A DNA stretch of 39,252 bases, from the IMG/VR virus record IMGVR_UViG_3300024518_003127, positions 1-39,252 of that record. One strand, written 5' to 3'. This DNA comes from a virus. Below, piece after piece: positions 3,442 to 20,543 of this stretch. Within the stretch, counting starts at the first letter, position 1. The number at the start of each line of letters is the position of its first letter. The notes under the pieces are model-generated. The model had not been told where the DNA came from. It searched no databases and was given only the letters and a program-made list of their open reading frames with translations. A program made the translations under genes and the position numbers.

Positions 3442-3463
3442 GCCAGCGACCGGAGGCCAGACC

Positions 3464-3883: not shown

Positions 3884-4338
3884 GCCAGCTCGAAAGCTAT
3901 CAGACCGAGATCGACGGCTGGTCCTATCGGATGAAGCACTTGAGCGTCCGCAAGTCGATGTGGGTGCTGACGCGGATCATGAAGGTGCTCGCCCCCGGCG
4001 TGGACTCGGCGAGCGACGCGGCCGAGCAAATCGCGCAGGCTGGTGCTGACTTCTTCGGGACGGTCGCCCAGAATCTGGACCCGGAAACGCTGTGGGCCAC
4101 GATGATGGACATGGCGGAGGTGTGCGAGGCAAAGCAGGGCGCGGGGCAATGGACCGAGCTTGCACCGATGTTCGAGCATCATTTCTTCGCGCGAGACATG
4201 GGGATGCTTCTGTGGTTCGTCTGGGCCCTGAAGTCGCAATACAGCCCTTTGCTCGCGGGTCTCGCCGCACGGAACGCCGAAGAGGCGGGGGACGAGGCCG
4301 GGGCGACGAACGAGACCACGACGACAAGCCCTGGCTGA
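3880..4338 (+). CDS. Tail assembly chaperone, short form
   Basis: 152 residues, GTG start overlapping the tube stop. The mostly helical protein carries an FEHHFFARDMGMLLWFVWAL block near residue 115, as in myovirus tail assembly chaperones encoded between tube and tape measure. It ends in a threonine-rich tail (NETTTTSPG). The reading frame one base back stays open across the stop and continues into a conserved-looking domain (next entry), so a minor -1 frameshift product is likely. The chaperone would coat the tape measure during tube polymerisation. Confidence 0.7.
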   Translation: MSQLESYQTEIDGWSYRMKHLSVRKSMWVLTRIMKVLAPGVDSASDAAEQIAQAGADFFGTVAQNLDPETLWATMMDMAEVCEAKQGAGQWTELAPMFEHHFFARDMGMLLWFVWALKSQYSPLLAGLAARNAEEAGDEAGATNETTTTSPG

Positions 4339-4481
4339 TGTGGCGGATCTGGGCGGAGGGAAAAGCAACGCTTCAGGAGCTCGATACGCACTGGGATCTG
4401 GGGGATGCGCTCGACGCTAACGAGGTCCTGGACGAGATTGCGGACGCGCAGGAGAGGGCGGAGAAGGAACGCGGGAGGTAG
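4338..4481 (+). CDS. Tail assembly chaperone, frameshift extension (or separate small ORF)
   Basis: An open frame reaching 4481 in the -1 frame relative to the upstream chaperone gene. The conserved part reads KPWLMWRIWAEGKATLQ then ELDTHWDLGDALDANEVLDE, typical of the second half of tail-chaperone pairs. The conserved stretch begins a few residues before the ATG at 4338 (TGATG overlap), which favours translation by frameshifting over independent initiation. A run of five G at 4287-4291 after GC offers a plausible slip point in the GGG codon at 4288-4290. Re-initiation at 4338 would give 47 residues. Confidence 0.6.
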   Translation: MWRIWAEGKATLQELDTHWDLGDALDANEVLDEIADAQERAEKERGR

Positions 4482-4487
4482 ACGGGC

Positions 4488-5957
4488 ATGGTCATAAAAG
4501 AGTTTCTCGTCTCTCTCGGGATCAAGACTGACGGCGCGGGCTTCCGCAACGTCCTGGGCTCACTTCAGGATCTCCGCGGCGCAGCCGGCGCGCTCGCCAT
4601 CGCTTTCGCCGGGATCAAGGCGGGCCAGCAGCTCGCAGCCATCACGGTCCAGGTCGCGAAGCTCGGCGACACCATCGACAAGACCGCGGGCCAGTTCGGC
4701 ATTGCCCGCGACGAGTTCCAAGAGCTGGGGTTCGTCGCTGGGCTCGGCGGCGTTTCCGCCGGCCAGTTCTCGAAGAGCCTCAAAGAGCTATCCAAGCGCG
4801 CAGGCGAAGCGGCGATCGGGCTCGGCGAGTCTTCGCGTGGGTTCGACTCTCTCGGGATCGACATCCGCGACGCCCAGGGGAAACTGAAGACGGCGCCGCA
4901 GCTCTTCGAGGAAGTGGCCGACGGGATCAAGGGGATCGAGGACCCGACCGCCCGCGTTCGTATCGCGTCGGATCTGTTCGGCCGCAGTGGCGCGAACATG
5001 ATCAACGTCCTGAAAAACGGCGCGGGAGCCATCCGAGAGCAGCGCAAAGAGTTCCGGTCCCTGGGCGGTGTGCTTGGGACAGATGTCGTTGACGCCTCGG
5101 TCCAGTTCATTGACGACCAGCTGCGCCTGGATACCGCCCTTCAGGGCATCAAAAACACGATCGCAAAGGGGCTGCTCCCGGCCTTCAACAGCGCACGCAA
5201 GGCGCTGATCGAGTGGACGAAGGCGAACGGGCCCGCCATCCGGTCGCAGCTTCTGCCCTTCATGCGCCGCCTCGGCAGGTTCGTCGGCAACCTGGCGACC
5301 GCCTTCGCCCGTGCGTCGGCGTTCATCGTCAAAAGCATCGGTCCCATGCGCGCCGCGTTCATCGCCTTGCTTGTCGTCGTGGGGCTTCTGGTTGCCGCCT
5401 TCGGGATCTGGCCGATCGTGATCGCCGTGGTCATCGGGCTGATCGCGGCAGTGATCGACGACCTCGAAGAGATGGGCAAGGGCGGCCGGTCCGTGATCGG
5501 TAGCCTGATTACGCAGTGGGACGCCTTCATTGAGTCGTTGCGGGAGCCGGTCAGCGGCGATGACCCGTGGTTCGTGACCGTAGCCAAGGACGCGGTGGCA
5601 GCATGGGATGCCGTGAACGCAGCGGTCGACGCCGCGCTCAAGAGCCTGAACGAAGCCATGTTTCAGGTTGAGAGCTTTTCCAGGAGGGTCGGGCCACTGG
5701 GTAACATCATTGGCGGCGGAGGAACTATTACCCGCAACCTGCCAAGGGCTTTCCGTGGTTCGGCTGCGGCCGGTGGCGTGGCGTCGGCGGGAGCCCGGAC
5801 CACATCCACCGTCGTCAACCAGACGAACAACACAACGATCAACGCCCCGAGCGGCGAGGCTGGCGCCATCGGTGGGGCTGTCCGGCGCAACGCGCGGACC
5901 TCAGATCGCAACCTGCGACGCACGGCTCAACAGCTGAGCCTGGAGCCGGCCCAGTAA
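4488..5957 (+). CDS. Tail tape measure protein
   Basis: 489 residues. A long helical N-terminal half with repeated glycine/alanine helices (KLGDTIDKTAGQFGIARDEF, LFGRSGANMINVLKNGAGAI) is followed by a strongly hydrophobic region at roughly residues 285-325 with two membrane-spanning-like helices, then a basic Gly/Asn-rich C-terminus. This is the usual make-up of tape measure proteins, which set tail length and are ejected during infection. Using the common rule of about 0.15 nm per residue, the tail would be roughly 70-75 nm. It sits just after the chaperone pair. Confidence 0.85.
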   Translation: MVIKEFLVSLGIKTDGAGFRNVLGSLQDLRGAAGALAIAFAGIKAGQQLAAITVQVAKLGDTIDKTAGQFGIARDEFQELGFVAGLGGVSAGQFSKSLKELSKRAGEAAIGLGESSRGFDSLGIDIRDAQGKLKTAPQLFEEVADGIKGIEDPTARVRIASDLFGRSGANMINVLKNGAGAIREQRKEFRSLGGVLGTDVVDASVQFIDDQLRLDTALQGIKNTIAKGLLPAFNSARKALIEWTKANGPAIRSQLLPFMRRLGRFVGNLATAFARASAFIVKSIGPMRAAFIALLVVVGLLVAAFGIWPIVIAVVIGLIAAVIDDLEEMGKGGRSVIGSLITQWDAFIESLREPVSGDDPWFVTVAKDAVAAWDAVNAAVDAALKSLNEAMFQVESFSRRVGPLGNIIGGGGTITRNLPRAFRGSAAAGGVASAGARTTSTVVNQTNNTTINAPSGEAGAIGGAVRRNARTSDRNLRRTAQQLSLEPAQ

Positions 5958-6511
5958 TGCCCACCCGCGTCATATTCGGCGGTGTGCTCTCGTTCGACTT
6001 CATCGACTTTGACGCCGATCTCCAGCGGACCATGACCGACACGAACACGGTTACCCGGCACAAGGTCGAGACCGGCGCAGACGTGACGGACCACATCCGC
6101 CGCGACCCCGCGACATACACGTTGCGCAGCGTCGTGAGCAACTCAGCCCTTCTCACGGCAGACCAGAAGGCACAGCAGCCGGCCGACCGTGCCGAAGAGG
6201 CATATCAGCGGATCCTGGAGAAGCTCGGAACCGTGGTTGCCGTAGAGACCCCGAAGCGCATCTACACGCAGATGGTGATCGAATCCATCTCGAACACCGA
6301 AGACGGCACCACCGGCGACGCGATGGACTTCGAGATCACGTTCGTTGAGCTGCGCCGCGCTGATTCTCAGGACGTCGCCGCGCCCGTGACCGAGGTGAAA
6401 CGCGCCAAGCCCGGCGAGAAGGCAGGAAGACAGGAGTCGACCGAGGCGAGCGCAGACAACGCGGACGCGGCGGGGCAATCTGTCCTGTCGTACGTTACGG
6501 GGATCGGCTGA
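5957..6511 (+). CDS. Dit-like tail/baseplate protein
   Basis: 184 residues. The core VTRHKVETGADVTDHIRRDPATYTLRSVV is the signature of the Dit-like N-terminal domain in small contractile tails ('E.GA.ItDH....P' pattern). The protein links tube and baseplate hub. The last 45 residues are charged and low in complexity (KRAKPGEKAGRQESTEAS). ATG 5957 overlaps the tape measure stop; the stop overlaps the plug gene start (TGATG). Confidence 0.75.
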   Translation: MPTRVIFGGVLSFDFIDFDADLQRTMTDTNTVTRHKVETGADVTDHIRRDPATYTLRSVVSNSALLTADQKAQQPADRAEEAYQRILEKLGTVVAVETPKRIYTQMVIESISNTEDGTTGDAMDFEITFVELRRADSQDVAAPVTEVKRAKPGEKAGRQESTEASADNADAAGQSVLSYVTGIG

Positions 6512-6852
6512 TGGCGGCGCTCGAGCTGGCGATTGAGACGGAGTTCCAGCGGTACCAGTATTCGGTGACCCTCGACGGCGTCGTGTTCCAGCTGGTATGG
6601 GTCTGGAGCGAGCGCGCGCAGCAGTGGTTTGTGGACCTCCTGGACTCCGACGGCAACGCCATCCGCTCGGGGCTGGCCGTCGTGACAGGGTTCCCGCTGT
6701 TCAGCCTCCTGGCCGAATCGTCTCGCCCCCTTGGTGAGATGGTGATCACGCAGGTGTCCAGCCCGAAGAGGGAGCCCGCCGAGACGGACCTTGGGGACTC
6801 GCACGCGATCGTCTACCTGGACGCCGATGAGCTTGCGGGGTTGTCGTCGTGA
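6511..6852 (+). CDS. Baseplate plug protein (Pam3 gp18-like)
   Basis: 113 residues, all beta in appearance. YSVTLDGVVFQLVWVWSERA, then WFVDLLDSDGNAIRSGLAV and GFPLF, fit the phage baseplate plug family described for the minimal baseplate of cyanophage Pam3. The plug sits in the tube lumen next to the hub. It is translationally coupled on both sides (ATG 6511; stop overlapping GTG 6849). Confidence 0.7.
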   Translation: MAALELAIETEFQRYQYSVTLDGVVFQLVWVWSERAQQWFVDLLDSDGNAIRSGLAVVTGFPLFSLLAESSRPLGEMVITQVSSPKREPAETDLGDSHAIVYLDADELAGLSS

Positions 6853-7676
6853 CGGAACTCATTGGCCGAAGCTATGAGCTCAACCTGGGCGGCACCCTGA
6901 TCCGCGAGCACGATATGGCGTTCGAGGTTGAGCGGTCCCTGTCTCGCGAGCACAACACGGCGACAATCACTGTCTTCAATCTCCCGAAGCGGAAGCGCGA
7001 CGGGCTGTCGACGGACGAGGACGTGCCTACATCCCTCCGCGCCGGGTACGGTAACCGGTTGGAAACGCTCTTCGTGGGTGACATGACGAACGTCCAGCAC
7101 GTTCGCGACGGCGGCGATTGGGTGACCACGATCGAATCAGGCGACGGAGCCAACGCGATCCGCCGCTCCCGGGTGGCGCTGTCCTTCCGTAAGGGGGCTA
7201 AGATCAAGGACGTGCTGACGGCCGCCGCGAAAGAGGTCGGGGCAGACATTGGGAACGTGATCCTGAAGGGCAAGGAAGGCGGGATCAAGGGGATCGCAGA
7301 CAACGTCGAGGAGTTCCTGGCGGGCCGTGTGCTCTCCGGTTCGGCCTACGACAATCTCGAAGAGATCGCTGACTCGCTGGGCTACCGGACGTCTATCCAG
7401 GACGGCGCGATCCAGCTGCTGGGCGACGATGAGACGAGTTCGAACGAGGTTGCTGCGCTGCTGTCTCCGTCCACCGGGCTCATCGGTTCGCCGGTCCGGG
7501 CTGAGAAGCGGCGCATCGAACTTCGCTCGCTGCTGCGCCGCGGGTTGCTGCCGGGCCGCAAGGTGAAGGTCGAGTCCAGGGACGTCAACGCCTTCTTCCG
7601 AATTGAAAAAGGGCAGTACAGCGGCTCGACCGACCAGGACGACTGGTTCGCGGATCTGGAGGTCAAGCAACTATGA
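6849..7676 (+). CDS. Baseplate hub protein
   Basis: 275 residues. The N-terminal strands (YELNLGGTLIREHDMAFEVE) and the phrase NTATITVFNLPKRKRDGL are typical of tail hub proteins of the gp27/XkdQ kind, which build the trimeric hub on which the spike sits. The middle resembles a LysM-like/knob region. Its placement between the plug and the Gp138-type spike supports the call. GTG start in a GTGA overlap. Confidence 0.7.
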   Translation: MTELIGRSYELNLGGTLIREHDMAFEVERSLSREHNTATITVFNLPKRKRDGLSTDEDVPTSLRAGYGNRLETLFVGDMTNVQHVRDGGDWVTTIESGDGANAIRRSRVALSFRKGAKIKDVLTAAAKEVGADIGNVILKGKEGGIKGIADNVEEFLAGRVLSGSAYDNLEEIADSLGYRTSIQDGAIQLLGDDETSSNEVAALLSPSTGLIGSPVRAEKRRIELRSLLRRGLLPGRKVKVESRDVNAFFRIEKGQYSGSTDQDDWFADLEVKQL

Positions 7677-8386
7677 CCGCCGGAGCGAACCCCACATGGG
7701 CCAGGATCATCAAGGACGCCGTCGACCGCGGAACCTTCAAGCTGCGCGTTGCTGTCCCGTGCCGTGTCGAGGCCGTCAACGTGGACGACAACAGCGTCGA
7801 CGTGAAGCCGCTCATCACGGAGCAACCACTACAGGGTGAGGCGCCTCAGTCGGTGCCCGTTGTGACGGATGTCCCCATCTGCATCTGGAGCGGGGGTGGT
7901 TTCTTCTCCTCGTTCCCTGCGGCCAAGGGTGACGAGGGGATCGCGCTGGTCTGCGACCGAGCGATCGATAGGTGGCTGGGCGGCGACGGGTCCGAGGTGG
8001 ACGCCTTCTTCAGGCGGCACCACAACATCAGCGACGCGGTGTTTCTGCCGGGCGGCCAGGCGTACGCTCGAGCGTTCAAAGACGTCCACGCAAAAAATGC
8101 GGTATGGGGCAAGGACGGCGGCGTTCAGATCCACCTGACGCCCGACGGCTTGATCTGCCTGGGCAGCAAGGATCCGGCGGACGCGCTGGCCCTGGCGGGC
8201 AAGGTGGACACGGAGATCGCGAACCTTCAGGCGCAGATCGACGCGCTGCTGGCGACGGTGGGGGCTAACGCCGGGGTCTACAACTCATTTGCGGCACACG
8301 CAGGTCCTCCAGCGAGCGTGTTCGCCATCCCTGCTCCGGGCACCCCGGGCAACCCTGTCGGCTCAAAGGTGGTGAAGAGTGACTGA
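7673..8386 (+). CDS. Baseplate spike, Gp138 N-terminal family
   Basis: 237 residues. The N-terminal OB-like part (LRVAVPCRVEAVNVDDNSVDVKPLI, VPICIWSGGGFFSSFPAAKGDEGIALVC, WLGG) matches the Gp138 N-terminal domain of membrane-piercing spikes. The segment GVQIHLTPDGLICLGS looks like a beta-helix strand repeat, followed by a coiled-coil-like DTEIANLQAQIDALLATVGA. A trimeric needle at the tail tip is expected. Overlaps the next gene by 8 bases. Confidence 0.75.
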   Translation: MTAGANPTWARIIKDAVDRGTFKLRVAVPCRVEAVNVDDNSVDVKPLITEQPLQGEAPQSVPVVTDVPICIWSGGGFFSSFPAAKGDEGIALVCDRAIDRWLGGDGSEVDAFFRRHHNISDAVFLPGGQAYARAFKDVHAKNAVWGKDGGVQIHLTPDGLICLGSKDPADALALAGKVDTEIANLQAQIDALLATVGANAGVYNSFAAHAGPPASVFAIPAPGTPGNPVGSKVVKSD

Positions 8387-8747
8387 CTTTCTGCTGACAG
8401 ACGAGGGCGAGCTGGACACCGACGGCGGGTTGACGCTCGTGACCGGCGTCCTGGCCACCGCCCAGAAGATCGTGATTCGGCTGCGCTTCTTCAAGGGCGA
8501 GTGGTTCCTCGACCTCGATACCGGCCTGGATTACATAGGCGTGATCCTGCGCAAGGGGACGCCGCTGCCCCTGATCGCGTCTCTCTATCGGGAGGCACTG
8601 GCGGAGACCCCCGGCGTTGAGTCCGTGATCTCTCTGGATCTGGAGTTCGACCGACCCACCCGCAACCTGCGCGTCTTCGGGTCCTGCGTGCACGCTGGAC
8701 TTGACGAGCCAATCAACTTCGACGTGCGATTCGTGGTAGGAGACTGA
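8379..8747 (+). CDS. Baseplate wedge, gp25-like (GPW/gp25)
   Basis: 122 residues. The order 'DEGELDTDGGLTLVTG', 'QKIVIRLRFFKGEWFLD', 'GLDYIGVILRKG', then 'IASLYREALAETPGV' is the gp25-like wedge pattern; these proteins start sheath assembly at the baseplate. Length is right for the family. ATG 8379 lies inside the end of the spike gene, and the J-like gene starts one base after the stop. Confidence 0.75.
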   Translation: MTDFLLTDEGELDTDGGLTLVTGVLATAQKIVIRLRFFKGEWFLDLDTGLDYIGVILRKGTPLPLIASLYREALAETPGVESVISLDLEFDRPTRNLRVFGSCVHAGLDEPINFDVRFVVGD

Positions 8748-8748
8748 C

Positions 8749-10230
8749 ATGGCCTTCGGCGTCACATCGACCGGGTTTGTGCTCAAGACTCAGCAGGACA
8801 TTTTCGACGAGCTGGTGGTGCGCTTGCGCGCCCGGTTCGGGGACGCCTTCGACACGTCGGCCGACTCAGTGGCGGGGAACTACACCGGCATCATCAGCGC
8901 CGTGGCTGCGGAGCTATGGGAGGTTGCGGCCGCGGTCTACCGCTCGCAGTATCCGAGTTCGGCTGTCGATGAAGCACTCGACAACGTGTGCGACCTCGTC
9001 GGGGTGCGGCGCCTGACTCCGCTGCCGTCCCTCGTGCCCCTGCTCCTCAACTTGGACAGCGGCGTTACCGCCCTGACCGGCAGTATCGTCAGCATCGGCG
9101 ACGCGGGCGCGCAGTTCGAGACGCTGGCTGACGCGGTGAACGCGGCCGGCGAGCAACGGCTGATCGCAGTCGAGGCGCAGTCATCGGACACCGGGCCTGT
9201 TGTCGCGAACGCGGGTTCGCTGGACACAATCAAGACACCGGTCGTCGGGTGGGTGGCGAAGGCTGCGGGGGTCAACAGCACCCTGGGTACGTTCGACCTC
9301 GACGACCTGGACGAGTTCCAGATCGAGGCCGACGACGGCACCCTTCAGACCGTCGTGGTCACCACCGGCGACTTTGTCGACATCGACCTTGCGACGGCCG
9401 CCGAGGTTGTGGCGGTCATTCTCGCGAACACCACAGGCCTGTCGATGTTCGTCCGCTCGGACGGGTTCATACACTACGAGAGCGACACGGACGGGCCCGG
9501 GTCAGCTATCAAGGTCGTGGGCGGCGATGTCGCGACCAAGTGCGGGTTTCCGCTTGAGCGATTCGCCGGCATGAACCGCAACGACGCGGAGCTCGGCCGC
9601 GACCTCGAAACGGATCCTGACCTCCGCGTCCGCCGCTCGCAGTCCCTACAGATCGTCGGGTCCGGAACACCTGGCGCCATCCGAGCGCGCTTGCTTAACG
9701 ACGTTGCTGGCGTGACTGCCGTCTTCGTGTTTCAGAATCGTAACGACGAGGTCGACTCGTTCGGCCGCCCGGGTCACTCGGTGGAAGCCGTGGTCCAGGG
9801 AGGGACGGACCAGGACATCGCCGATCTGCTGTGGGACATCGGGGGCGCGGGGATTGAGCTCTTCGGGTCCGTGTCCGTCGGGGTCGTCGACGACAACGGG
9901 GACGCGCAAACCGTCTTCTTCTCTCGGCCGGTTCCTGTGCCGATCGCGGTCGAGGTCGACGTAGAGACCGACTCGTCCTACGCCGTGGACGGCGACGACC
10001 AGGTGAAGGCGGCCATCGTCCTGTTCGGGGATGCGCTGGGCATCGGAACGGACGTCTTCATCAGCGCCCTGTACTGCGCGATCTTCGCAGTCGCCGGTGT
10101 GGTCAACGTCACGCGGATCGAGATCGGAACTCCGGGCCCGGCGGTCGGTTCGGCGGACATCGTGATCGACCCGGACGGCGTCTCGACTTGGGACACGTCG
10201 GATATCGTCGTTGCAGCGGTGGCGGTGTAG
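8749..10230 (+). CDS. Baseplate J-like protein
   Basis: 493 residues. The N-terminus (TGFVLKTQQDIFDELVVRLRARFGDAF, then SQYPSSAVDEALDNVCDLVGVRR) is the standard opening of Baseplate_J proteins, followed by the PLLLNLDSGVTALTGSIVSIG strands. Residues 295-330 contain the RVRRSQSLQI..GTPGAIRARLLNDVAGV block that begins the conserved C-terminal domain. It forms the wedge arms linking hub and fibres. One of the larger baseplate genes, as usual. Confidence 0.85.
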   Translation: MAFGVTSTGFVLKTQQDIFDELVVRLRARFGDAFDTSADSVAGNYTGIISAVAAELWEVAAAVYRSQYPSSAVDEALDNVCDLVGVRRLTPLPSLVPLLLNLDSGVTALTGSIVSIGDAGAQFETLADAVNAAGEQRLIAVEAQSSDTGPVVANAGSLDTIKTPVVGWVAKAAGVNSTLGTFDLDDLDEFQIEADDGTLQTVVVTTGDFVDIDLATAAEVVAVILANTTGLSMFVRSDGFIHYESDTDGPGSAIKVVGGDVATKCGFPLERFAGMNRNDAELGRDLETDPDLRVRRSQSLQIVGSGTPGAIRARLLNDVAGVTAVFVFQNRNDEVDSFGRPGHSVEAVVQGGTDQDIADLLWDIGGAGIELFGSVSVGVVDDNGDAQTVFFSRPVPVPIAVEVDVETDSSYAVDGDDQVKAAIVLFGDALGIGTDVFISALYCAIFAVAGVVNVTRIEIGTPGPAVGSADIVIDPDGVSTWDTSDIVVAAVAV

Positions 10231-10231
10231 C

Positions 10232-11080
10232 ATGCCGATCACAGTCACAGGGACAGACCCATCAAACGGGGCCGGGTCCGTCGCCGTCGACCGGCCGATC
10301 GACATGACGATCACGCACTCCGTCGGGACTGAGGTCATCGACGATGCGACGCTCTACGTTGACATCCAGTACGGGAGCGACCCCGTGCAGAATGCGATCG
10401 TTGCAGGTGTGATTCAGGCAGCGTTTGACGGCTTCGACGCTTCGATAGGCGGAGTCGGGACCGATCAGTTAGTGATTCGGATGCGCCCCATCTCGGACAT
10501 GCCCGAGGGTATAACCGTTACGATCACGTTCCCGCAGGACATCGACGACATCGCGCAGACGGGGCCGTTTCCGCTGACCGGCTTCTCCTTTGGTACGGAT
10601 GACGAGACGGCGCCCACCGTCGACATCCAGAAGCCGGCCAACGGGTCCGAGGTTCCCGCTGTCGGGCTCGAGCTGCTCGTGGACATCACGGACATATCAG
10701 GTGTCGACAGCACGTCCGTTGACGTTGAGATCCTGGAGTTGGCGGAGTTCGCGGTCCTCGGTGGCACGATTCAGTCTGGCTGGACGGGGACCCACACCGC
10801 GATCACGGACGGGCGCCGCGTCGACATCGTGCGAGACACGCCGCTTGACGAAGGGACATCCTACACGCTGGAGGTGACGGCCGAGGATCTCGTGTTCGCC
10901 AACGTTGCCGTCGAGACGTCTGAGTTTTTGACGTCGCTCCCCGAGTCCGTGCCGTTCCTGCCGCGGAAGTTTGCGCACGTGTCAGAGTCACAAGCGCGGC
11001 TCCTGACGCAGTTCCAGAAGGACGGTCACGAGGACTTCCTTGGGATCATGGTCGACCAGTTCAACGGGAGGAAGGCTTGA
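10232..11080 (+). CDS. Ig-like domain protein of the tail/baseplate
   Basis: 282 residues from ATG 10232, two bases after the J-like stop. Two Big_5-like immunoglobulin-fold modules are visible: one opening TDPSNGAGSVAVDRPIDMTI, the second PTVDIQKPANGSEVPAVGL; each contains an 'A(I/V)..G.IQ..(F/W).G' block (AIVAGVIQAAFDG, AVLGGTIQSGWTG). The C-terminus (LPRKFAHVSESQARLLTQF) is helical and probably anchors the protein. The same module type occurs in the gene cut by the window ends. Likely a surface decoration or attachment protein. Confidence 0.6.
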   Translation: MPITVTGTDPSNGAGSVAVDRPIDMTITHSVGTEVIDDATLYVDIQYGSDPVQNAIVAGVIQAAFDGFDASIGGVGTDQLVIRMRPISDMPEGITVTITFPQDIDDIAQTGPFPLTGFSFGTDDETAPTVDIQKPANGSEVPAVGLELLVDITDISGVDSTSVDVEILELAEFAVLGGTIQSGWTGTHTAITDGRRVDIVRDTPLDEGTSYTLEVTAEDLVFANVAVETSEFLTSLPESVPFLPRKFAHVSESQARLLTQFQKDGHEDFLGIMVDQFNGRKA

Positions 11081-11565
11081 GCTTCGACAAGATCGGCATG
11101 GGCGTCGAGGACGTCTTCGAAGAACTCTTCACCAAGCGCACCTTGGTCTCAGCGGAGGGCGTGCAGCTGGACGGGTACGGCGAGATCGTTGGCGTCGAAC
11201 GGTCCGGGTTGTCGGACGGGGATTACCGGCTGCGCATCGGGGTGCAGATCCTGATCAACCTGTCCGAGGGGAGCCGGCTCGACATCTTCGGAGTCGTCGC
11301 CGCACTGCTGCCTCCTGGCACCGAATGGACTTACGTCGAGCAGCACCCGGCCAGCTTCGAGGTCATCGTTGATGACATCTTCACGCAAAACAAGGAAGAG
11401 GTCGCGCGCAACGTCTGCCGTGCCGCACTTGCCGGCGTTCGGTGTATCCTGCGGACACGCGTAGACAATCCATTCGAGTTCGCGGGCGGCACCGACGGCA
11501 GCGGGTTCGGCGAGGACGGCGTCCCGGCGACGGGCGGAAACTTCGCATCGGCAACAGAGGGGTAA
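11077..11565 (+). CDS. Baseplate protein, DUF2612-like
   Basis: 162 residues. The features PPGTEWTYVEQHPASFEVIV, then EVARNVCRAALAGVRCIL, and an end of FEFAGGTDGSGFGED..TGGNFASA are those of DUF2612-like tail proteins that follow Baseplate_J genes and take the place of tail protein I. The start is TTG 11077, supported by a GGGAGGAAGG ribosome-binding site and a TTGA overlap with the upstream stop. A role linking wedge and fibre is inferred from position. Confidence 0.55.
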   Translation: MSFDKIGMGVEDVFEELFTKRTLVSAEGVQLDGYGEIVGVERSGLSDGDYRLRIGVQILINLSEGSRLDIFGVVAALLPPGTEWTYVEQHPASFEVIVDDIFTQNKEEVARNVCRAALAGVRCILRTRVDNPFEFAGGTDGSGFGEDGVPATGGNFASATEG

Positions 11566-11568: not shown

Positions 11569-12864
11569 ATGTCTGATCAACCAGTACAGCAGCCGCGTTG
11601 GGCCGACGGTGGCGGGGCCGACGTGGTCGAGCCCCCCGGCGGAAAGAAGGATGACGGGTGGGTTGCGGGCGAGAAGCCCCCAGCGGAGTACTTCAACTGG
11701 CTGCACAACCGCGTGTACCAGTGGACACAGTGGCTCGAAGACACCTTCGGGGACGGTGCCAGCGCGGACCGCTACACGTCGCAGGGGCTCGACGCTACGG
11801 CCGTTGACACTGACGGCGACGGGGGCACGGGCCAGGGTGACGGGACCGGAGATGGGCTCGCGGGTACAGGGGGCGCCGGTGGTGGCGATGGCGTCGTCGG
11901 GACGGCCGGTTCGAACCTGGGCGCAGGTGTTCGCGGTATCGGCGGCGCGGCCGGGGGTGTCGGCGTTCGCGGTATCGGAACGGGCACCGGCGGCGAGGGC
12001 GGACGGTTCACGGCGGGCAACGCTGGCGGGACGGGCGACGCTCGCGGGGTCATCGGGATCAACCAGAGCGCGACCCTTGCGGCCGTCGATGGATTGAACC
12101 AGGGGTCCGGCCCGGGCGTCTTCGGGTCTTCGGCAAGCGGCGCGGGCGTCGAGGGGAGCAGCGACACGATCGCAGTCCAGGGCATCGCCACAACATCAGG
12201 CAAGGGCGTCTACGGTGAGGCCGGGCCGACCGGCGGCGAGGGCGTCGAAGGGTACGGCGGCACAGGTACGGCCGTCGGTGTGCGCGGTAGCGGCGGCGAC
12301 ACGGACGGGACCGGCGTTTTCGGAACCAGTGGCGGCGGAGGGGGCATCGGCGTGCGTGGCCTCTCGACCGGCACCGGGCCCGGGGTTCGCGGTGAAGGAA
12401 CATCCGGCCCCGGCGTCTGGGGTACCGCCAGCAGCGCGCCCGGGGTTCAGGGGACATCCACGAACGCGAACGCGGCAGTCTTCGGCGACAACACGAACGG
12501 TACCTACCACGGGATCGAGGGTGCGGCGGGCGGCGCGGGATTCTACGGCATCCAGGGCCGCAACAAGACAGGGCTGAATGGCGGTGGTGTCTACGGGTTT
12601 GTCGATGGCACGACGCCTATGGCTGCTGTCCGCGCCGAATTCAACTCGTCCAATGCGCTGGCGACAGCGATCGAGCTCGTGAAGGGGGGATCCGCGGATG
12701 CGACTGCACCGATCATGCGATGGTCGGGTTTGACTGACGACATAGGCTTTTTTGACGTGGACGGGAACGCGGGGATACCGGGATCAGGAGGGGGTGCTGA
12801 TGGCCGCATTGATGTCACCATCCCGGGCGTCGGCGACTTCGCCATCCCTCTTTACACCGTCTAA
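11569..12864 (+). CDS. Glycine-rich tail fibre
   Basis: 431 residues. Residues about 36-60 (PPAEYFNWLHNRVYQWTQWL) are the N-terminal virion-attachment helix seen in many phage fibres. Residues about 75-330 are glycine-rich with the recurring unit G-V-x-G (GVRGIG, GVFGSS, GVEGSS, GVRGLS, GVWGTA, GVQGTS), which suggests a repetitive trimeric shaft. The last 100 residues are less repetitive (AVRAEFNSSNALATAIELVK...) and may form the tip. ATG 11569 follows a GAGGGG site. Likely the host-recognition fibre. Confidence 0.7.
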   Translation: MSDQPVQQPRWADGGGADVVEPPGGKKDDGWVAGEKPPAEYFNWLHNRVYQWTQWLEDTFGDGASADRYTSQGLDATAVDTDGDGGTGQGDGTGDGLAGTGGAGGGDGVVGTAGSNLGAGVRGIGGAAGGVGVRGIGTGTGGEGGRFTAGNAGGTGDARGVIGINQSATLAAVDGLNQGSGPGVFGSSASGAGVEGSSDTIAVQGIATTSGKGVYGEAGPTGGEGVEGYGGTGTAVGVRGSGGDTDGTGVFGTSGGGGGIGVRGLSTGTGPGVRGEGTSGPGVWGTASSAPGVQGTSTNANAAVFGDNTNGTYHGIEGAAGGAGFYGIQGRNKTGLNGGGVYGFVDGTTPMAAVRAEFNSSNALATAIELVKGGSADATAPIMRWSGLTDDIGFFDVDGNAGIPGSGGGADGRIDVTIPGVGDFAIPLYTV

Positions 12865-12879
12865 CATGGAGGCATCAAA

Positions 12880-13257
12880 GTGAACGAAGAGAGAATCAAG
12901 CTCGTAGAGATCCAGCACTGGAAGAGCTCCTTTCTTGCCGAGATCTCTAAGCTGGCAGGGATTGCGGGATCGATAGACACCGACAACGCCTCGCTTGTGG
13001 CGGATGGGGCGATCGACGGCTTGCGGGCCAAGCTCACATACCCTGCCCCCACATACAACGACCCGGGCGACTCTTCGATGATTCACAAGCAAGAGTACGA
13101 CGCATGGGCGTGCGTGTACCGATGCGAGGCAACCAAGGTCGCGACCGTCCTGGACACGTCAGAGGTCACGGCGGCGAAGGCTGCGGCGGACGCATGTATC
13201 GCAGGACTCCGCGCCAAGCTCGGCTACACGGTTCCGTCCTACCCCGGGTCATGGTGA
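12880..13257 (+). CDS. Small protein with an internal duplication, after the fibre gene
   Basis: 125 residues from GTG 12880 (GGAGG eight bases upstream). Not recognised. Two similar segments are visible: DGAIDGLRAKLTYPAPTY (middle) and DACIAGLRAKLGYTVPSY (C-terminus), an internal repeat of about 20 residues separated by roughly 65 residues. It has no signal peptide or membrane segment. Its place directly behind the fibre suggests a fibre chaperone or a small tip protein, but this is only inference. Confidence 0.6.
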   Translation: MNEERIKLVEIQHWKSSFLAEISKLAGIAGSIDTDNASLVADGAIDGLRAKLTYPAPTYNDPGDSSMIHKQEYDAWACVYRCEATKVATVLDTSEVTAAKAAADACIAGLRAKLGYTVPSYPGSW

Positions 13258-13269
13258 TAGGCTGAGCCC

Positions 13270-13554
13270 ATGAGCGAGCTCGCGGCACTTGCAGAGGTCT
13301 TTCAGACGTTCGGGGGCTACGCATTCGCCGCCGTGATGACGATATTCTACGTCAAAGAGAAGTCCTACAGTCGCAAGCTGACCGTCGACCTGGTCTCACA
13401 CGCGGAGAAGCAGGGTGAGCACCTGGCGAAAATGGCGGGGGCCGCCGAGGCATCGAAGGAAACCAACCAAAAGCTAGACTCTCAGAGTCAAGCGATTACG
13501 GAGCTGGCGCACAAGGTCGACATGTTGCCCCGCTCGGAAGGGGGTCAGTCCTGA
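13270..13554 (+). CDS. Putative small membrane protein of the lysis cassette (holin candidate)
   Basis: 94 residues. One hydrophobic segment lies near the N-terminus (about residues 11-28, FQTFGGYAFAAVMTIFYV), followed by a charged, coiled-coil-like region to residue 85. It is the first gene of a run of small membrane-associated proteins ending with the endolysin, where a holin is expected. A single membrane helix with a long soluble tail is unusual for a holin, so other membrane roles remain open. The stop at 13554 abuts the next ATG (TGATG). Confidence 0.55.
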   Translation: MSELAALAEVFQTFGGYAFAAVMTIFYVKEKSYSRKLTVDLVSHAEKQGEHLAKMAGAAEASKETNQKLDSQSQAITELAHKVDMLPRSEGGQS

Positions 13555-13862
13555 TGTTTCGCCGCCTATTCAAACGCCGCAAGGATCCAGCGTCAGACGT
13601 GACGAGCGTCGGCCGGGTCCTCGTTGATCTCGGGTACATCTCCGCCGACCAGCTGGCCCACGCACTCGGGGCGCAGGGGCAGACTGGGGAGCGGCTTTGC
13701 ACCGCGCTCGTGGGGCTCGGGGTGATCACGAAGTGGCAGGCGCAGAATGCTCTCAACGAGCAGAAGATCCGGCGGGGGGACATCGCCCCGCGCGCCCACC
13801 TCCGGATCCAGAGAGAGCGGAACCAGCGCCTTGCGCAGTCGCTCGCGGCCCAGGTCAAGTGA
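13554..13862 (+). CDS. Stand-alone MshEN-like domain protein
   Basis: 102 residues. A basic N-terminus (FRRLFKRRK) is followed by two 24-residue repeats separated by exactly five residues: residues 18-41 (S-VGRVLVDLGYISADQLAHALGAQ) and 47-70 (RLCTALVGLGVITKWQAQ... to Q70). The 24+5+24 spacing and the pattern LGxxLVxxGxIxxxQLxxALxxQ are those of the MshEN/GspE N-terminal domain, which binds cyclic di-GMP in MshE-type ATPases. The first-motif arginine is replaced by serine and the second RLG reads RLC, so ligand binding is uncertain. No ATPase domain follows. Encoded between two membrane proteins of the lysis cassette. Confidence 0.65.
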   Translation: MFRRLFKRRKDPASDVTSVGRVLVDLGYISADQLAHALGAQGQTGERLCTALVGLGVITKWQAQNALNEQKIRRGDIAPRAHLRIQRERNQRLAQSLAAQVK

Positions 13863-14134
13863 GCGTATGGCGGAAGATCGGCATGGCCATCCTGTTCGCC
13901 GGGGCCGTAGTCGTTGCGATCCTCACGCTTGGCCGCGTGAAGCTGCGCCCTCCTGGGTCGGTCCGGCTGGCCGACGACGCCGAAAGCCTGGCGCGCAGGG
14001 AACGTCGCAGGACCGCGGACGCCGAAGACAAGGCGCACGCCGACGGGCTCACGAGCAACGAGCCGGAGAAGCTGGCGGGAGGGGAATCAGGTGCGGATTT
14101 TCTGCGTCGTGTTCGCGATCGCGATCGGGGCTAG
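13859..14134 (+). CDS. Inner-membrane protein, i-spanin candidate
   Basis: 91 residues from GTG 13859 (GTGA overlap). Residues 5-23 (RKIGMAILFAGAVVVAILTL) form a membrane helix preceded by a short positive N-terminus. The rest is highly charged and helical (ADDAESLARRERRRTADAEDKAHAD), as in Rz-type i-spanins. The downstream lipoprotein-like gene starts inside its 3' end at 14091, an arrangement like Rz/Rz1. The periplasmic part (about 65 residues) is short for a spanin. Confidence 0.5.
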   Translation: MSVWRKIGMAILFAGAVVVAILTLGRVKLRPPGSVRLADDAESLARRERRRTADAEDKAHADGLTSNEPEKLAGGESGADFLRRVRDRDRG

Positions 14135-14567
14135 CTGTGCTTCCCGATCCCTCACCATCCCGCCCACGGTCGCCTTCCCGGGGCCGCCAGACCCGCGGCT
14201 ATACCGGACGATCGATCCGTCCGTCTTCTTCCCTCGCTGGTGTGACGAGCCGCGGGAGCACCCGTGCGCGGTCGACCCGCCGAAGCTCGCGGAGCACTTC
14301 TGGGCGTGGGCCGTCGATGCGACCTCGGTTGCCGAATACATGTACGCGCACCTGGCGCGGCGCGAGGCGTCTTGGATCGACGTCGTTGCGTCCGTCCAGG
14401 CGCAGCGGGACACCTACGCGGAGGCGTACGATGATGCGAGCGCGGAGCCGCTTATCCCTGTCTGGGCGTGGGTCGCCTTGTCCGCGGCCGGCGCGCTGGC
14501 GCTCGGGTTCGTGGTCGGGGCGCAGCTCGGCGGCCAGGGGGTCGTCGTGATCGACGGGGGGAGCTGA
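14091..14567 (+). CDS. Signal-peptide protein with C-terminal membrane helix, u-spanin candidate
   Basis: 158 residues from GTG 14091, which has a strong GGGAGGGG site upstream. The N-terminus MRIFCVVFAIAIGASC looks like a lipoprotein signal (Cys16, although the -3 residue is Gly instead of Leu). The middle is proline-rich then helical, with two further cysteines (51, 59). Residues 123-144 form a membrane helix. An N-terminal lipid anchor plus a C-terminal membrane helix is the design of unimolecular spanins, which join outer and inner membranes in the last step of lysis. It could instead be an o-spanin partner of the preceding gene. Confidence 0.5.
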   Translation: MRIFCVVFAIAIGASCASRSLTIPPTVAFPGPPDPRLYRTIDPSVFFPRWCDEPREHPCAVDPPKLAEHFWAWAVDATSVAEYMYAHLARREASWIDVVASVQAQRDTYAEAYDDASAEPLIPVWAWVALSAAGALALGFVVGAQLGGQGVVVIDGGS

Positions 14568-15103
14568 TGATCGAGATCGTTGACATGACCGTCGCTTGCA
14601 TGAAGTACGGCCGACTCCCCCGGACGCGCGGGACCGAGATCGATACGGTGATTATCCACCGCTTCGGGCCGAAGATACCGAAGTGGGAAGACCTACACAC
14701 GGCCGCGGACATCGCCCGAGCGTTCGCGCATCATCCGGAACTCGCGCAGGCGTTCGGCCGCATGCCCTACCACTTCGTCGTCTGGCCAGACGGGCGCGTT
14801 GAGCAGGGCGTTCCCGTCAGGTTCCAGACCCCGCACGCCTACCGGTGGAACAACCGCGCGATCGGGGTCGCCGTGGTCGGGGACTTCAGGACGGAGCAGG
14901 CGACGCCGGAGGCTTTCCGGTCCACCGTCGAGCTATCGCAGGCGTTGTGCTCGTCCTACCAAGCGCGCTGTGGTGGGCACGACGAGTTTCCGAAGGCGTC
15001 AAAGGACTCGAACAAGGTGTGCCCAGGCCCGGGCATGCGGATGCACGAGTTTATGGAGCTGGTCAATCGGAGCCCGGAAGCGATCGCCGTGTGGGTCCAC
15101 TAG
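14567..15103 (+). CDS. Endolysin: N-acetylmuramoyl-L-alanine amidase (Amidase_2)
   Basis: 178 residues from ATG 14567 (overlaps the previous stop, GGGGGGAG upstream). An amidase_2/PGRP-type fold is indicated by IDTVIIHRF (His31), MPYHFVV (Tyr68-His69), WNNRAIGVAVVGDF, and GGHDEFP...KVCPGPGM (His138, Cys152). His31, His138 and Cys152 would hold the zinc ion. It cleaves the amide between muramic acid and the peptide stem. It has no cell-wall-binding domain and no signal peptide, so release by a holin is expected. The last gene of the late module; its end overlaps an opposing gene. Confidence 0.85.
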   Translation: MIEIVDMTVACMKYGRLPRTRGTEIDTVIIHRFGPKIPKWEDLHTAADIARAFAHHPELAQAFGRMPYHFVVWPDGRVEQGVPVRFQTPHAYRWNNRAIGVAVVGDFRTEQATPEAFRSTVELSQALCSSYQARCGGHDEFPKASKDSNKVCPGPGMRMHEFMELVNRSPEAIAVWVH

Positions 15104-15320
15104 CGCGCACCACGAAGTGATACGGGTCCCTGGCGTTTCTCGGGTACAGCAAGACACGTATCGCCTTTCGATGGATCTGGTATACCCGCGACGGCGTGAC
15201 CCCCATGCCCGTTGCGATGTCCCGAACAGACAAGGCGTCCATCCCTACCCCATGGATTCGCTCGACCACGTGTTGCTGCTGTAGAGACAGCGCGGACATT
15301 GCTGGGACCTCAATCCGCAC
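15063..15320 (-). CDS. Small helix-turn-helix protein (sigma region 4-like)
   Basis: 85 residues from GTG 15320; an internal ATG at 15299 is also possible. Residues about 29-57 (ALSVRDIATGMGVTPSRVYQ, then IHRKAIRVLL) match the helix-turn-helix of sigma-70 region 4 or related transcription factors. It is the last gene of the leftward operon and overlaps the nuclease gene stop by 11 bases. Its own 3' end overlaps the endolysin 3' end on the other strand by 41 bases. A regulatory role, perhaps in switching to late transcription, is inferred. Confidence 0.6.
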   Translation of the reverse strand: MRIEVPAMSALSLQQQHVVERIHGVGMDALSVRDIATGMGVTPSRVYQIHRKAIRVLLYPRNARDPYHFVVRASGPTRRSLPGSD

Positions 15321-16467
15321 TGTCCGCCACCTTCGACGCGTCCACCTCGTCCACCTTCTTGTACCCCGAGTCTTTCAGCCCGCCGCCAGCTCGCATCGCA
15401 CCGAAGACCTGATCCTGGTGGGACTTCAGCGTCCCGGTGATCGCCTCGGTCTTCTTCGCCTCGCGCAGCGCTTTGGTGATCGAGGACTTCGAGATCGAGA
15501 CCTTCGTCTCGGTCGCGGCGTCGGCGAACTCAGGGCCGTACACGTCGCGAACGATCTCGACGGCTAGATCGGGAACGACTGCTTCCTTGGGTACGACGAC
15601 CTCCGCCACCACCTTGCCGTCTCCGATCGGGACGGCGCCGAAGGTGCGCACGTACTCGCGGAGGACTCCCTTGACCTGGGTCAATACCTCCTCCGCCTGC
15701 TTCGCCTTGCGCCACACGTCGGGGAAGTTGTCGGGGGTCAGCGCCTTGGGCTCGTCGGCCGGTGGCTTGGCCAGCAGCGAGGCTATCCGCCCCTTGCCGG
15801 GACATGCGCCCCAGGCGTTGCAGTACTTGCACCACGGGCCCGCTCGCGTCTCGTGGTGCTCCTGGTCCGTGACCAGCTGGTACAACTCTTCCTCGAAGTC
15901 GTCGAGGGCGAAGCCGTCCATGACGTGGGTTTGAATGAACGGCCGCCCGTCGGAGGTGTCCCGCACGATCTGCACCTTCGCCGCGTCCAGTCCGTGCGCT
16001 CGAGCTACGCACATCGCCCCGAACCGGATCTGCCAGTTGAACTCGGCGGGAGGGATCCACCCCCATCCCGTCTTTAGGTCGGCGACGTACGCCGTGGCGC
16101 CGTCCTCAACCCCGACCATGTCGAACGTCCCGACGACGTCTGTGGGGAGCGCACCCGCTTCTTCGTACCGGCGCCCGATGCCCTGGCCGATACGATGCGC
16201 CTTCCGGGTGGCTGGGCTCCATGCGAAGGCGATCTCTCGCGACACGTCGCCGCGCAGCGCGAACTCCGACAGTCCCTCGGCCGCGGCGCGGTGTTCGTCG
16301 GGGAGCTCCTCGAGCGCAGCTTCGCGTCCGAGCTTCCGTGCATTCTCTGCGAACCAGTGCAGGGACGTTCCCCTTGCACTGTCGCGTGTGTCCTCGGATC
16401 GGTGCTGCGGCAGATTGTCCGACTCGCGACAGCGCGCGATACGGTCCAGTTGTGATGCTGAGATCAT
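15310..16467 (-). CDS. RecB/Cas4-like PD-(D/E)XK nuclease with four-cysteine cluster
   Basis: 385 residues, resembling the phage DUF2800 group. Motifs: Cys13; GTSLH (His37); GTFDMVGV (Asp116); ADLKTG (Asp130, Lys132); FNWQIRFGAM (Gln146); and WCKYCNAWGACPG (Cys213, 216, 222). One N-terminal plus three later cysteines is the iron-sulphur layout of AddB, Cas4 and related exonucleases. The enzyme would resect double-stranded ends for the annealing protein encoded two genes upstream. ATG 16467 overlaps the preceding stop (ATGA). The C-terminal 120 residues are rich in Lys/Val and unmatched. Confidence 0.8.
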   Translation of the reverse strand: MISASQLDRIARCRESDNLPQHRSEDTRDSARGTSLHWFAENARKLGREAALEELPDEHRAAAEGLSEFALRGDVSREIAFAWSPATRKAHRIGQGIGRRYEEAGALPTDVVGTFDMVGVEDGATAYVADLKTGWGWIPPAEFNWQIRFGAMCVARAHGLDAAKVQIVRDTSDGRPFIQTHVMDGFALDDFEEELYQLVTDQEHHETRAGPWCKYCNAWGACPGKGRIASLLAKPPADEPKALTPDNFPDVWRKAKQAEEVLTQVKGVLREYVRTFGAVPIGDGKVVAEVVVPKEAVVPDLAVEIVRDVYGPEFADAATETKVSISKSSITKALREAKKTEAITGTLKSHQDQVFGAMRAGGGLKDSGYKKVDEVDASKVADSAD

Positions 16468-16835
16468 GAGTCCTCTCCTTTCGTTTCGAGATCCTGCACG
16501 GACAGCCCATTGATCCGCAAGATGATATTGATGGCTGCCCGGACGTAGAAGGACTGTGTGATGCGGGTCCGCTTGCTGAGGCGCCGCAGCATCTCTACCG
16601 TGGCCGGCTCGACGTGCCAGCTGCTGGAAACCAGCTTCTCGCGCCGCACCACGCAGGCGTGCCGCCGGAAGCGCGGCCCCGCATACACCGAGGCCTCTTT
16701 CGCGGACAGCCGGACGAACCCGTCAAGCTCAACAGAGAAGGCGAACTGTCCGTCGCTGGAGGGAAAGCTGTCGACCACGGTCCCACCGTGTTGCAGCACG
16801 AACGAATCGCAGTGCTCGCAGAATTCAGGTCTCAC
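16464..16835 (-). CDS. Zinc-ribbon plus ribbon-helix-helix-like protein
   Basis: 123 residues from GTG 16835 (GTGA overlap with the annealing protein gene). The N-terminus has a CEHC motif (FCEHCDSFV). Residues about 80-112 (VEMLRRLSKRTRITQSFYV, then RAAINIILR) look like a ribbon-helix-helix DNA-binding motif. It is coupled on both sides to recombination genes. It may bind DNA as an accessory factor or operon regulator; the function is not known. Confidence 0.55.
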   Translation of the reverse strand: MRPEFCEHCDSFVLQHGGTVVDSFPSSDGQFAFSVELDGFVRLSAKEASVYAGPRFRRHACVVRREKLVSSSWHVEPATVEMLRRLSKRTRITQSFYVRAAINIILRINGLSVQDLETKGEDS

Positions 16836-17701
16836 GTCACCTCCCCCTGCCGCGCCTGGAACGCTGGTCGGATGGCGTCGCGTAGCTCCTGCGGGAGCGG
16901 CTTGATCCGCGGGCGCATGTCGTCGAGCTGGGCGCGCGTCTCGCACTCCTCGATCCACCGCAGCCACGTCTCGGGTTTGCTTTCGTCGTCGTCGCTCGCC
17001 GGGGCATCGGTGACCTCGCCGGTCTCCGGGTCCACGGTCTCGCTCGTCGTCGTCTTGTCGATGATGACGACGCCTTGCGGCTTGGGCTCAGGCTCCGCCG
17101 TCGCAGCAGCCGGCTCGTCTTCCGGCAACGGGGTCATGGCCGGGGCGCCGTCGCTCCACTCGCCTTCGATGACGGTCCCGAGCTCGTCGCGCAGGTACAG
17201 CCCGATCGACCGGTCCGGGTAGCAGATGCGCGCCAGATCGGCGGTGCACCTCGCCCTGAGCATGGCGGCCGGGAAGTTGCGCCAGTTGTCCTTTCCGCAC
17301 AGCCCCGCGGCCTTCGCCATGTCAATTGTCCACGTGTAGGGGGTCGGTGTCGGGTGGTCTCGGTGCTTCGTCTCGAACGTGGCGCGCACGTCGTCCGAGT
17401 GGACCATACGGAAGTACTCGCACTCAGGGGCCCGGGTGACGAAGGACGTCATCAGACGGGACGACAGGACGGCGCGCCCCTTGATGATGTGGATTTCAGC
17501 CAGCGCGATCATTGCGGACACGCCCAACTCGGCGCCCTTGCTCATGATCATCCACACGGACTCAGGCTTATTCGCCAGGGCGGACGGGCATAGGTTCGAC
17601 CGCGCTATGAACTGTGCGATCTTCCACCCCTGCTCGAACGTGGTTGGCTGGTACACGGCGGCGAGCTCGGCGCTCGCGGGTCTTCGGGCAAGTTCGCTCA
17701 T
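16832..17701 (-). CDS. Single-strand annealing protein (RecT-like)
   Basis: 289 residues from ATG 17701. The order of blocks TTFEQGWKIAQFIARSNLCP, ANKPESVWMIMSKGAELGVS, IHIIKGRAVLSSRLM, then AAGLCGKDNWRNFPAAMLRA and YPDRSIGLYLRDELG is that of RecT-type phage annealing proteins. The C-terminal third (from about residue 200) is acidic and low in complexity (TTTSETVDPETGEVTD) with a small helical end. Paired with the exonuclease in the same operon it would drive single-strand annealing recombination. ATGA overlap with the upstream small gene. Confidence 0.75.
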   Translation of the reverse strand: MSELARRPASAELAAVYQPTTFEQGWKIAQFIARSNLCPSALANKPESVWMIMSKGAELGVSAMIALAEIHIIKGRAVLSSRLMTSFVTRAPECEYFRMVHSDDVRATFETKHRDHPTPTPYTWTIDMAKAAGLCGKDNWRNFPAAMLRARCTADLARICYPDRSIGLYLRDELGTVIEGEWSDGAPAMTPLPEDEPAAATAEPEPKPQGVVIIDKTTTSETVDPETGEVTDAPASDDDESKPETWLRWIEECETRAQLDDMRPRIKPLPQELRDAIRPAFQARQGEVT

Positions 17702-17901
17702 CGTCTGGCCTCCTGGTTGTAGGCGTCGAGCCACTGCTGCGCGAGGGTGCGCCAGCGGCGCGCGTGGGTCATGTCGCCGCAGGATTCGCGGCGGTCGGCC
17801 GCCTCGGACATCTGGAGCGCCTTCGCGAACATGGCGCCCTGCGAGAATCCGCGGGCTTGCAATAGGGGGATGGGTCTGCCAGTCTTCGGGTTCGGGATCA
17901 A
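17698..17901 (-). CDS. Small basic protein, first gene of the recombination operon
   Basis: 67 residues, TTG start at 17901 with AAAGGAGG upstream at good spacing. Helical and charged (FAKALQMSEAADRRESCGDM, LAQQWLDAYNQEARR). Not recognised. It is coupled to the annealing protein by ATGA and directly follows the structured leader of the operon. The strong ribosome-binding site and coupling are the main support. Confidence 0.55.
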   Translation of the reverse strand: MIPNPKTGRPIPLLQARGFSQGAMFAKALQMSEAADRRESCGDMTHARRWRTLAQQWLDAYNQEARR

Positions 17902-17931
17902 TTCTGGTCCCTCCTTTCGTTTGGGTCACTG

Positions 17932-17970
17932 CCGCCCCCGACAAACCACCACGGTTTCCCACGGGGGCGG
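17932..17970 (-). promoter_or_regulatory. Strong leader hairpin before the leftward operon
   Basis: A perfect nine-base inverted repeat, CCGCCCCCG (17932-17940) and CGGGGGCGG (17962-17970), encloses a second small stem, AAACC / GGTTT (17943-17947 and 17953-17957). It lies between the operator and the TTG start at 17901, so it would fold in the 5' leader RNA of the recombination operon. No U-tract follows. It may act as an attenuator, an mRNA-stabilising structure or a protein site; the function is not shown by sequence. Confidence 0.6.
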
Positions 17971-19677: not shown

Positions 19678-20543
19678 ACGCGCTAGCGCAGACAATGACG
19701 GACGACTTCGCCCTGTATCATGGGGACTGCGTCGAGGTGGTGGGGGGACTACCGGAGTCCAGCATCCACTACTCGATATTCTCGCCGCCGTTCGCGTCGC
19801 TCTACACCTACTCGAACAGCGACCGCGACATGGGGAATTGCAAAAACCACGACGAGTTCGCGCGCCACCTAGCGTTCCTGGTGGACGAGCTGTTCAGGGT
19901 CACAATCCCCGGCCGGTTGCTGTCGTTCCACTGCATGAACCTTCCGACGTCGAAGGCGAGGGACGGGGTCATCGGGCTGACTGACTTCCGAGGTGATCTG
20001 ATTCGGATGTTTCGCGACGCCGGATGGATCTATCACTCCGAGGTCTGCATATGGAAAGATCCGGTAACAGCCATGCAGCGCACCAAGGCGCTCGGACTCC
20101 TTCACAAGCAACTCAAGAAAGACTCGTGCATGAGTCGCCAGGGCATCGCTGACTACCTCGTGACCATGCGCAAGCCGGGCGACAATCCCGAGCGGGTGAC
20201 GCACACCAACGAGACATTCCCGGTGCAGTCGTGGCAACACTACGCTTCGCCTGTCTGGATGGACATTGACCCGAGCCGCACGCTTCAGAAACACTCGGCG
20301 CGAGAGGCGAAGGACGAGCGGCACATCTGCCCGCTCCAACTCGATGTCATCGAACGCGCGGTGACGCTGTGGACGAATCCAAGAGACCGGGTGCTGTCGC
20401 CGTTCATGGGTATCGGCAGCGAGGGGTTTGTTGCCCGCGAGATGGACCGGCGTTTCGTCGGAGTCGAGCTCAAGGCGTCGTACTATCGCCAGGCCGTGGC
20501 CAACATCTCCGCGGCCGGCAAGCAGATGAGTCTGTTCGGATGA
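19674..20543 (+). CDS. DNA methyltransferase (N6-adenine or N4-cytosine, beta-type order)
   Basis: 289 residues from GTG 19674, with GGAGG just upstream and a GTGA overlap; an ATG at 19695 is an alternative start. The catalytic motif IV SPPF (37-40) precedes the S-adenosylmethionine motif SPFMGIGS (242-249), the order of beta-class amino-methyltransferases. FVGVELKASYYRQA follows as expected for motif II. It would modify phage DNA, plausibly for protection from host restriction. The target sequence cannot be read from the protein. Confidence 0.8.
   Translation: MNALAQTMTDDFALYHGDCVEVVGGLPESSIHYSIFSPPFASLYTYSNSDRDMGNCKNHDEFARHLAFLVDELFRVTIPGRLLSFHCMNLPTSKARDGVIGLTDFRGDLIRMFRDAGWIYHSEVCIWKDPVTAMQRTKALGLLHKQLKKDSCMSRQGIADYLVTMRKPGDNPERVTHTNETFPVQSWQHYASPVWMDIDPSRTLQKHSAREAKDERHICPLQLDVIERAVTLWTNPRDRVLSPFMGIGSEGFVAREMDRRFVGVELKASYYRQAVANISAAGKQMSLFG

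Follow-up and report, generated by a model that had tools for sequence, protein, structure and literature searches.

The 39,252-base stretch of DNA analysed here (the window) is a virus record, that of a contractile-tailed phage, and encodes a tail sheath, tape measure, baseplate, terminase, portal, head protease and major head protein. Within its lysis block lies a gene for a small protein resembling MshEN, the domain by which bacteria sense the messenger cyclic di-GMP (c-di-GMP). A corresponding block is present in a second phage, L034 (IMGVR_UViG_3300024520_000166, 42,129 bases), which was found by a search with the endolysin. The features of the block in the window are listed below, with homologues referring to L034.

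13270..13554, + strand: single-transmembrane (TM) protein of 94 aa, TM at about 10-28 and charged C-terminal tail by hydropathy, holin candidate; 52% identical syntenic homologue at L034:6376-6660
13554..13862, + strand: stand-alone MshEN_N-like protein of 102 aa, by an NF053729 match of 50.5 bits, a 67% identical syntenic homologue, AlphaFold models and PDB fold matches
13554..13583, + strand: basic N-terminal tail MFRRLFKRRK of the MshEN-like protein, predicted disordered (pLDDT <50 at residues 1-4 and 6-9); LF[KR]RRKDPA is common to both phages
13605..13676, + strand: Motif I, residues 18-41, first two positions changed from Arg to Ser and from Leu to Val (repeat and pocket comparison)
13677..13691, + strand: five-residue linker GQTGE (internal repeat analysis)
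13692..13763, + strand: Motif II, residues 47-70, with Gly changed to Cys and the Leu54 equivalent to Ala (repeat and pocket comparison)
13788..13856, + strand: extra C-terminal basic helix, predicted at residues 79-101 (79-100 in the homologue), replacing the MshEN_C (ND1) subdomain
13859..14134, + strand: second single-TM protein, 91 aa, TM 7-25 by hydropathy, i-spanin or second holin candidate; 60% identical homologue
14091..14567, + strand: spanin-like protein with an N-terminal lipoprotein-like signal and a C-terminal TM; 60% identical homologue; 44-nt overlap with the previous gene
14567..15103, + strand: endolysin, N-acetylmuramoyl-L-alanine amidase (Pfam Amidase_2, E 6.7e-17; PHROG lysis amidase); 51% identical homologue

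The open reading frame for the MshEN-like protein is confirmed as a real gene. Its ATG start shares bases with the upstream stop codon (TGATG), its own stop codon runs into the GTG at which the downstream gene begins (GTGA), and its third-position GC of 0.85 is the same as that of the other genes of the window. No sigma-70 type promoter-like site was found in 12700-15400. The protein lacks a TM by hydropathy, and residues 71-102 are basic, with 9-10 Lys or Arg against 2 Asp or Glu. The basic N-terminal tail is possibly a segment that contacts the membrane or a partner.

The labels of the neighbouring membrane proteins are drawn from topology and gene order, and those of holin and spanin are used here for candidates. 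The 13270..13554 protein, whose holin role is a guess from topology, had no family match over the cut-off in Pfam or PHROGs. In the 14091-14567 protein, a signal-like N-terminus with a Cys and a weak lipobox is followed by two further Cys and the C-terminal TM. Unimolecular spanins have been reported without further periplasmic Cys (PMC6139136). This unusual spanin-like protein is conserved in both phages and had no match in 50,697 phage records. A search with PADLOC returned weak, unrelated matches only. Beyond the endolysin, a leftward block (15310-17962, - strand) runs against most of the genome and encodes a PD-(D/E)XK exonuclease, a ribbon-helix-helix protein and a RecT-like annealing protein.

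Residues 18-70 of the protein form a true MshEN_N domain. The two repeats, SVGRVLVDLGYISADQLAHALGAQ (residues 18-41) and RLCTALVGLGVITKWQAQNALNEQ (residues 47-70), are both 24 residues long and are separated by a spacer of 5 residues. This pair, beginning at 18 and 47, is exactly the best internal 24-mer pair (9 identities, score 28), a result reached in none of 400 shuffles. In a profile search, NCBIfam NF053729.1 (‘c-di-GMP_motif, MshE-related’; model length 53, cut-off 38 bits) matched residues 20-70 at model positions 3-53 of 53 with E 1.3e-13 and 50.5 bits, although Pfam gave no MshEN match at E <= 1. The L034 homologue also exceeds the cut-off (47.6 bits, E 1.1e-12). By sequence, the nearest solved structures are MshE and PilF (phmmer E 1.5e-5 to Vibrio cholerae MshE, 5htl), while PHROGs holds no phage family for the protein.

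Predicted structures point to the same family. The AlphaFold2 model (pLDDT 78, pTM 0.66) places helices at 12-26, 31-44, 48-54 and 60-74, followed by the extra helix at 79-101, with residues 1-9 disordered; the model of the L034 homologue (pLDDT 81) has the same layout. These models partly depend on the MshEN assignment, because bacterial MshEN rows were included in the input alignment. The top PDB matches in Foldseek are PilF GSPII-A, GSPII-B, MshE and the PilB N-domain, all with E >0.05, and superposition on PilF GSPII-B gives about 1.0 Å over 53 residues. With VIA, MshEN-type domains reach Z ~9 and unrelated fumarase-type helices 7-8, barely lower. The fold alone is thus not decisive for MshEN identity; profile and fold jointly decide. 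Chance convergence of a helical repeat, for which the missing Pfam match and the middling scores of helical bundles against unrelated proteins such as fumarase C-termini could be cited, has a negligible probability and is considered refuted by the match of the L034 protein to the profile, since two diverged homologues match almost the entire 53-residue model with E 1.3e-13 and 1.1e-12 and the sequence-aware fold matches are led by MshEN-type domains.

The protein is a variant form of an already known domain. Like V. cholerae MshE and Thermus thermophilus PilF GSPII-B (NF053729), it has two 24-residue motifs, a 5-residue linker, the four-helix ND0 fold and the Leu, Gly and Gln positions. In contrast to these, it is phage-encoded and stands alone without an ATPase or ND1, carries the changes R9S, L10V, G40C and L54A (MshE numbering), and has a new basic N-terminal tail and C-terminal helix. 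It does not belong to the traffic ATPases (MshE/PilB/GspE), as the open reading frame stops after the ND0 bundle and one helix.

The homologue in the second phage (L034:6657-6965) is 67% identical over nearly its full length, and its gene is flanked by the same two TM genes, which it overlaps by a few bases at start and stop codons. Five genes follow the same order in both phages, encoding a single-TM protein, the MshEN-like protein, a second TM protein, the signal/TM spanin-like protein and the amidase, and their identities are 52, 67, 60, 60 and 51%, respectively. The two genomes are largely collinear (terminase 47%, portal 55%, head protease 59%, tail sheath 47%), and no other full-length protein in the comparison is as well conserved as the MshEN-like one. 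Its gene has a dN/dS of ~0.28 (Nei-Gojobori) with dS near 1, and is therefore under purifying selection. The original prediction, which was made from the window's sequence, had described a stand-alone MshEN-like domain in a phage lysis cassette, built of two 24-residue repeats (18-41 and 47-70) with a five-residue gap, and had named as checks a profile search, a structure prediction and a search of other phages' lysis cassettes. The repeats are confirmed, and the domain in its cassette is borne out by the profile match, by leading fold matches to the PilF GSPII, MshE and PilB N-domains, by synteny, and by a block position that is conserved in two phages beside an endolysin assigned by Pfam.

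The tail fibre at 11569-12864 (+ strand, 431 aa) has an N-terminus that matches tail-fibre families, with 69% identity over 65 residues to a stretch of the L034 phage, and a very glycine-rich middle. A further record from the same metagenome as L034, IMGVR_UViG_3300024520_001015, has 99% DNA identity to window positions 1077-11236. Most of its genes are 100% identical to those of the window, and an Ig-domain protein (10211-11080) stands out with 93% amino acid identity; the record belongs to this virus or a closely related strain, and the tail protein changes fast.

The ligand pocket of the phage domain has been altered. MshE stacks the first Arg of each motif against a guanine, and the Gly at position 3 provides a hydrogen bond from its backbone; there are two hydrophobic clusters, L10/L54/L58 and L25/L29/L39, and Q32 and Q61 touch ribose and phosphate (PMC5013675). 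Both phages keep the equivalents of G11, L25, L29, Q32, L39, L58 and Q61, and thus the two Gln that contact the ligand and four out of six Leu. Four changes are common to the two proteins: R9 to Ser, L10 to Val, G40 to Cys and L54 to Ala, of which three (L10, G40 and L54) belong to the half of the pocket that takes the second guanine. The original prediction had noted partly changed binding residues; the Ser for Arg and the RLC for RLG that it named are present, but its list lacked the changes at L10 and L54. The Ser, Val, Cys and Ala are seen at these positions in none of 27 unique bacterial domains, a small sample picked by similarity. The motif II Arg of the window protein is Gln in L034. 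The proteins of the window and L034 have 7 and 6 of 10 canonical key positions, respectively, and bacterial domains have 8-10. Neither of these phage proteins carries the c-di-GMP receptor consensus RLG...L...L..Q in both motifs, and the contact made in MshE by Asp108, from the MshEN C-terminal subdomain, is missing.

Published variants indicate what such changes can cost. The MshE variants G11L and G40I are not stabilised by the ligand, and L10A loses 36 fold in affinity (PMC5013675). PilF GSPII-A constructs no longer bind when Ser occupies the motif II Arg position, and lose 10-30 fold when Ala occupies that of the Gly (PMC12002112). PilF GSPII-B has Lys and Leu in place of the two Arg and still binds c-di-GMP at 6 nM (PMC11731258), and loss of Arg alone is therefore no proof of lost binding. 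The first helix of GSPII-B is extended in the apo state and unwound on binding (PMC11731258); the extended first helix of the phage models was accordingly set aside as an argument against binding. Degenerated pockets within the MshEN fold, either non-binding or without the motifs, are likewise found in PilF GSPII-A, the Xanthomonas citri PilB ND0 and the XpsE N-domain, though these are parts of large ATPases and differ in the set of changed pocket residues (PMC12002112, PMC8389850, PMC5013675). Judged by its residues, the phage protein probably has weak or no c-di-GMP binding at cellular levels. As its pocket is altered alike in both phages, the domain was probably recruited for another job.

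The best reading of that job, held tentatively and at somewhat below an even chance, is that a recruited and probably c-di-GMP-blind MshEN_N fold works in the cytoplasm with the lysis membrane proteins, as their partner or regulator. A phage lineage would have recruited one MshEN_N (ND0) four-helix bundle from the bacterial c-di-GMP-receptor family, and the bundle would then have gained its new basic N-terminal tail and new basic C-terminal helix. Its nucleotide pocket would have been rebuilt, with the response to c-di-GMP at cellular levels probably lost. At the inner membrane face, the bundle may attach to the cytoplasmic portion of either the holin candidate or the second TM protein, and could set or modulate the time of lysis in the manner of a cytoplasmic antiholin. 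Gene position and co-conservation suggest such a role in lysis timing, which appears the most likely one; a regulator is favoured because the tight, conserved and overlapping linkage to lysis membrane genes is the strongest remaining evidence. A precedent for a cytoplasmic antiholin exists in T4 RIII (PMC8385771), a small cytoplasmic protein acting with the holin; the likeness is one of functional analogy only and does not imply kinship. If holin regulation proves true, the protein would represent a novel type of lysis regulator in the cytoplasm. In any event, the lysis-block copies of two uncultured tailed phages tie a second-messenger receptor fold to phage lysis in a small, directly testable protein.

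A possible though doubtful alternative is that the protein serves a different late process, such as virion assembly, membrane targeting or nucleic-acid binding, as a scaffold or adaptor, and that its location in the lysis operon is incidental. Its conservation above that of the surrounding lysis proteins could mean a partner outside the block, and with its basic tails it could attach to nucleic acid or membrane. In both phages, however, the gene keeps its place between two membrane genes of lysis type and overlaps their ends, which argues against an incidental location.

Mimicry of a pilus or secretion ATPase, which the original prediction had raised, is unlikely. The fold is that of the ND0 of PilB, MshE and PilF, and small phage proteins linked to the pilus ATPase are known, Tip, Aqs1 and Zip, which target PilB and PilZ (PMC11656802). 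However, ND1 contains most of the mapped PilZ interface and of the GspL/EpsL-binding region (PMC8389850), and the idea is weakened because ND1 with these docking surfaces is absent from the phage protein. Tip, Aqs1 and Zip bind the ATPase or PilZ, and none is described as reproducing the N-domain of that ATPase; moreover, Tip and Aqs1 are presented as inhibitors expressed by prophages (PMC11656802), whereas the MshEN-like gene is embedded in a lysis block.

The original prediction had also proposed sensing or sequestration of c-di-GMP. A working sensor or sponge for c-di-GMP or another cyclic dinucleotide would read the sessile or motile state of the host for lysis timing, or soak up the messenger. 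The above-cut-off match to a c-di-GMP-binding family and the retained Gln, Gly11 and Leu25/29/39/58 equivalents fit such a function, and isolated MshEN_N binds c-di-GMP well (PMC12002112), as does GSPII-B in spite of its missing Arg. The proposal is nonetheless disfavoured, and improbable overall, because the losses at R9, L10, G40 and L54 are common to both phages and similar changes lower or abolish binding in MshE and PilF (PMC5013675, PMC12002112); the Gln for motif II Arg in L034 and the absent Asp108 contact add to this. There is a slim chance that the altered pocket is still a ligand site, for host c-di-GMP at a high level or for another cyclic dinucleotide, coupled to holin triggering. 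Binding of a nucleotide there would connect host signalling to lysis timing.

The family that these two proteins represent currently has no further known members, and the two phages may have their host or habitat in common. The collections searched yielded no other stand-alone MshEN domain encoded by a phage. With the MshEN-like protein as query, tblastn against the 50,697 phage records gave chance-level matches only. With MshE as query, it gave three unannotated faecal ‘Bacteriophage sp.’ scaffolds at E <1e-3; MT836441 and MT835655 were rejected as phage relatives, as both encode full-length bacterial-type GspE/PilB ATPases and hence are probably bacterial DNA. Viral contigs, searched with the MshEN-like protein alone, two MshEN alignments and the two-phage alignment in pattern-based scans that may miss diverged members, yielded only L034. 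No further member was found in 50 contigs from the best 80 terminase relatives, and plasmids gave no credible match. Among 193 genomes from the phylum of a Myxococcales locus, 122 have matches to the MshEN-like protein; none of the matches listed is a stand-alone short open reading frame, the shortest being 145 aa, at a contig end. The bacterial relatives examined are pilus and secretion ATPases and signalling proteins with receiver domains. A host search by portal protein in two phyla found distant matches only. At the DNA level, the sole megablast match of the window's first 25 kb to phage records is a stretch of 110 bases (20311-20420) that shares 78% identity with a DNA methylase gene from Synechococcus phage S-LBS1.

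Among viral structures, the best fold match to the MshEN-like protein is A0A516LYM6 (E 0.011). A fold-library hit of 119 aa from Shewanella phage Spp001, probably Spp001_60, was rejected, having no MshEN profile match. This hypothetical protein (48185-48544, - strand, of the Spp001 record, L042) adjoins endolysin genes and has an internal repeat of its own, LLIACxDSxTxxxDVAxHI.
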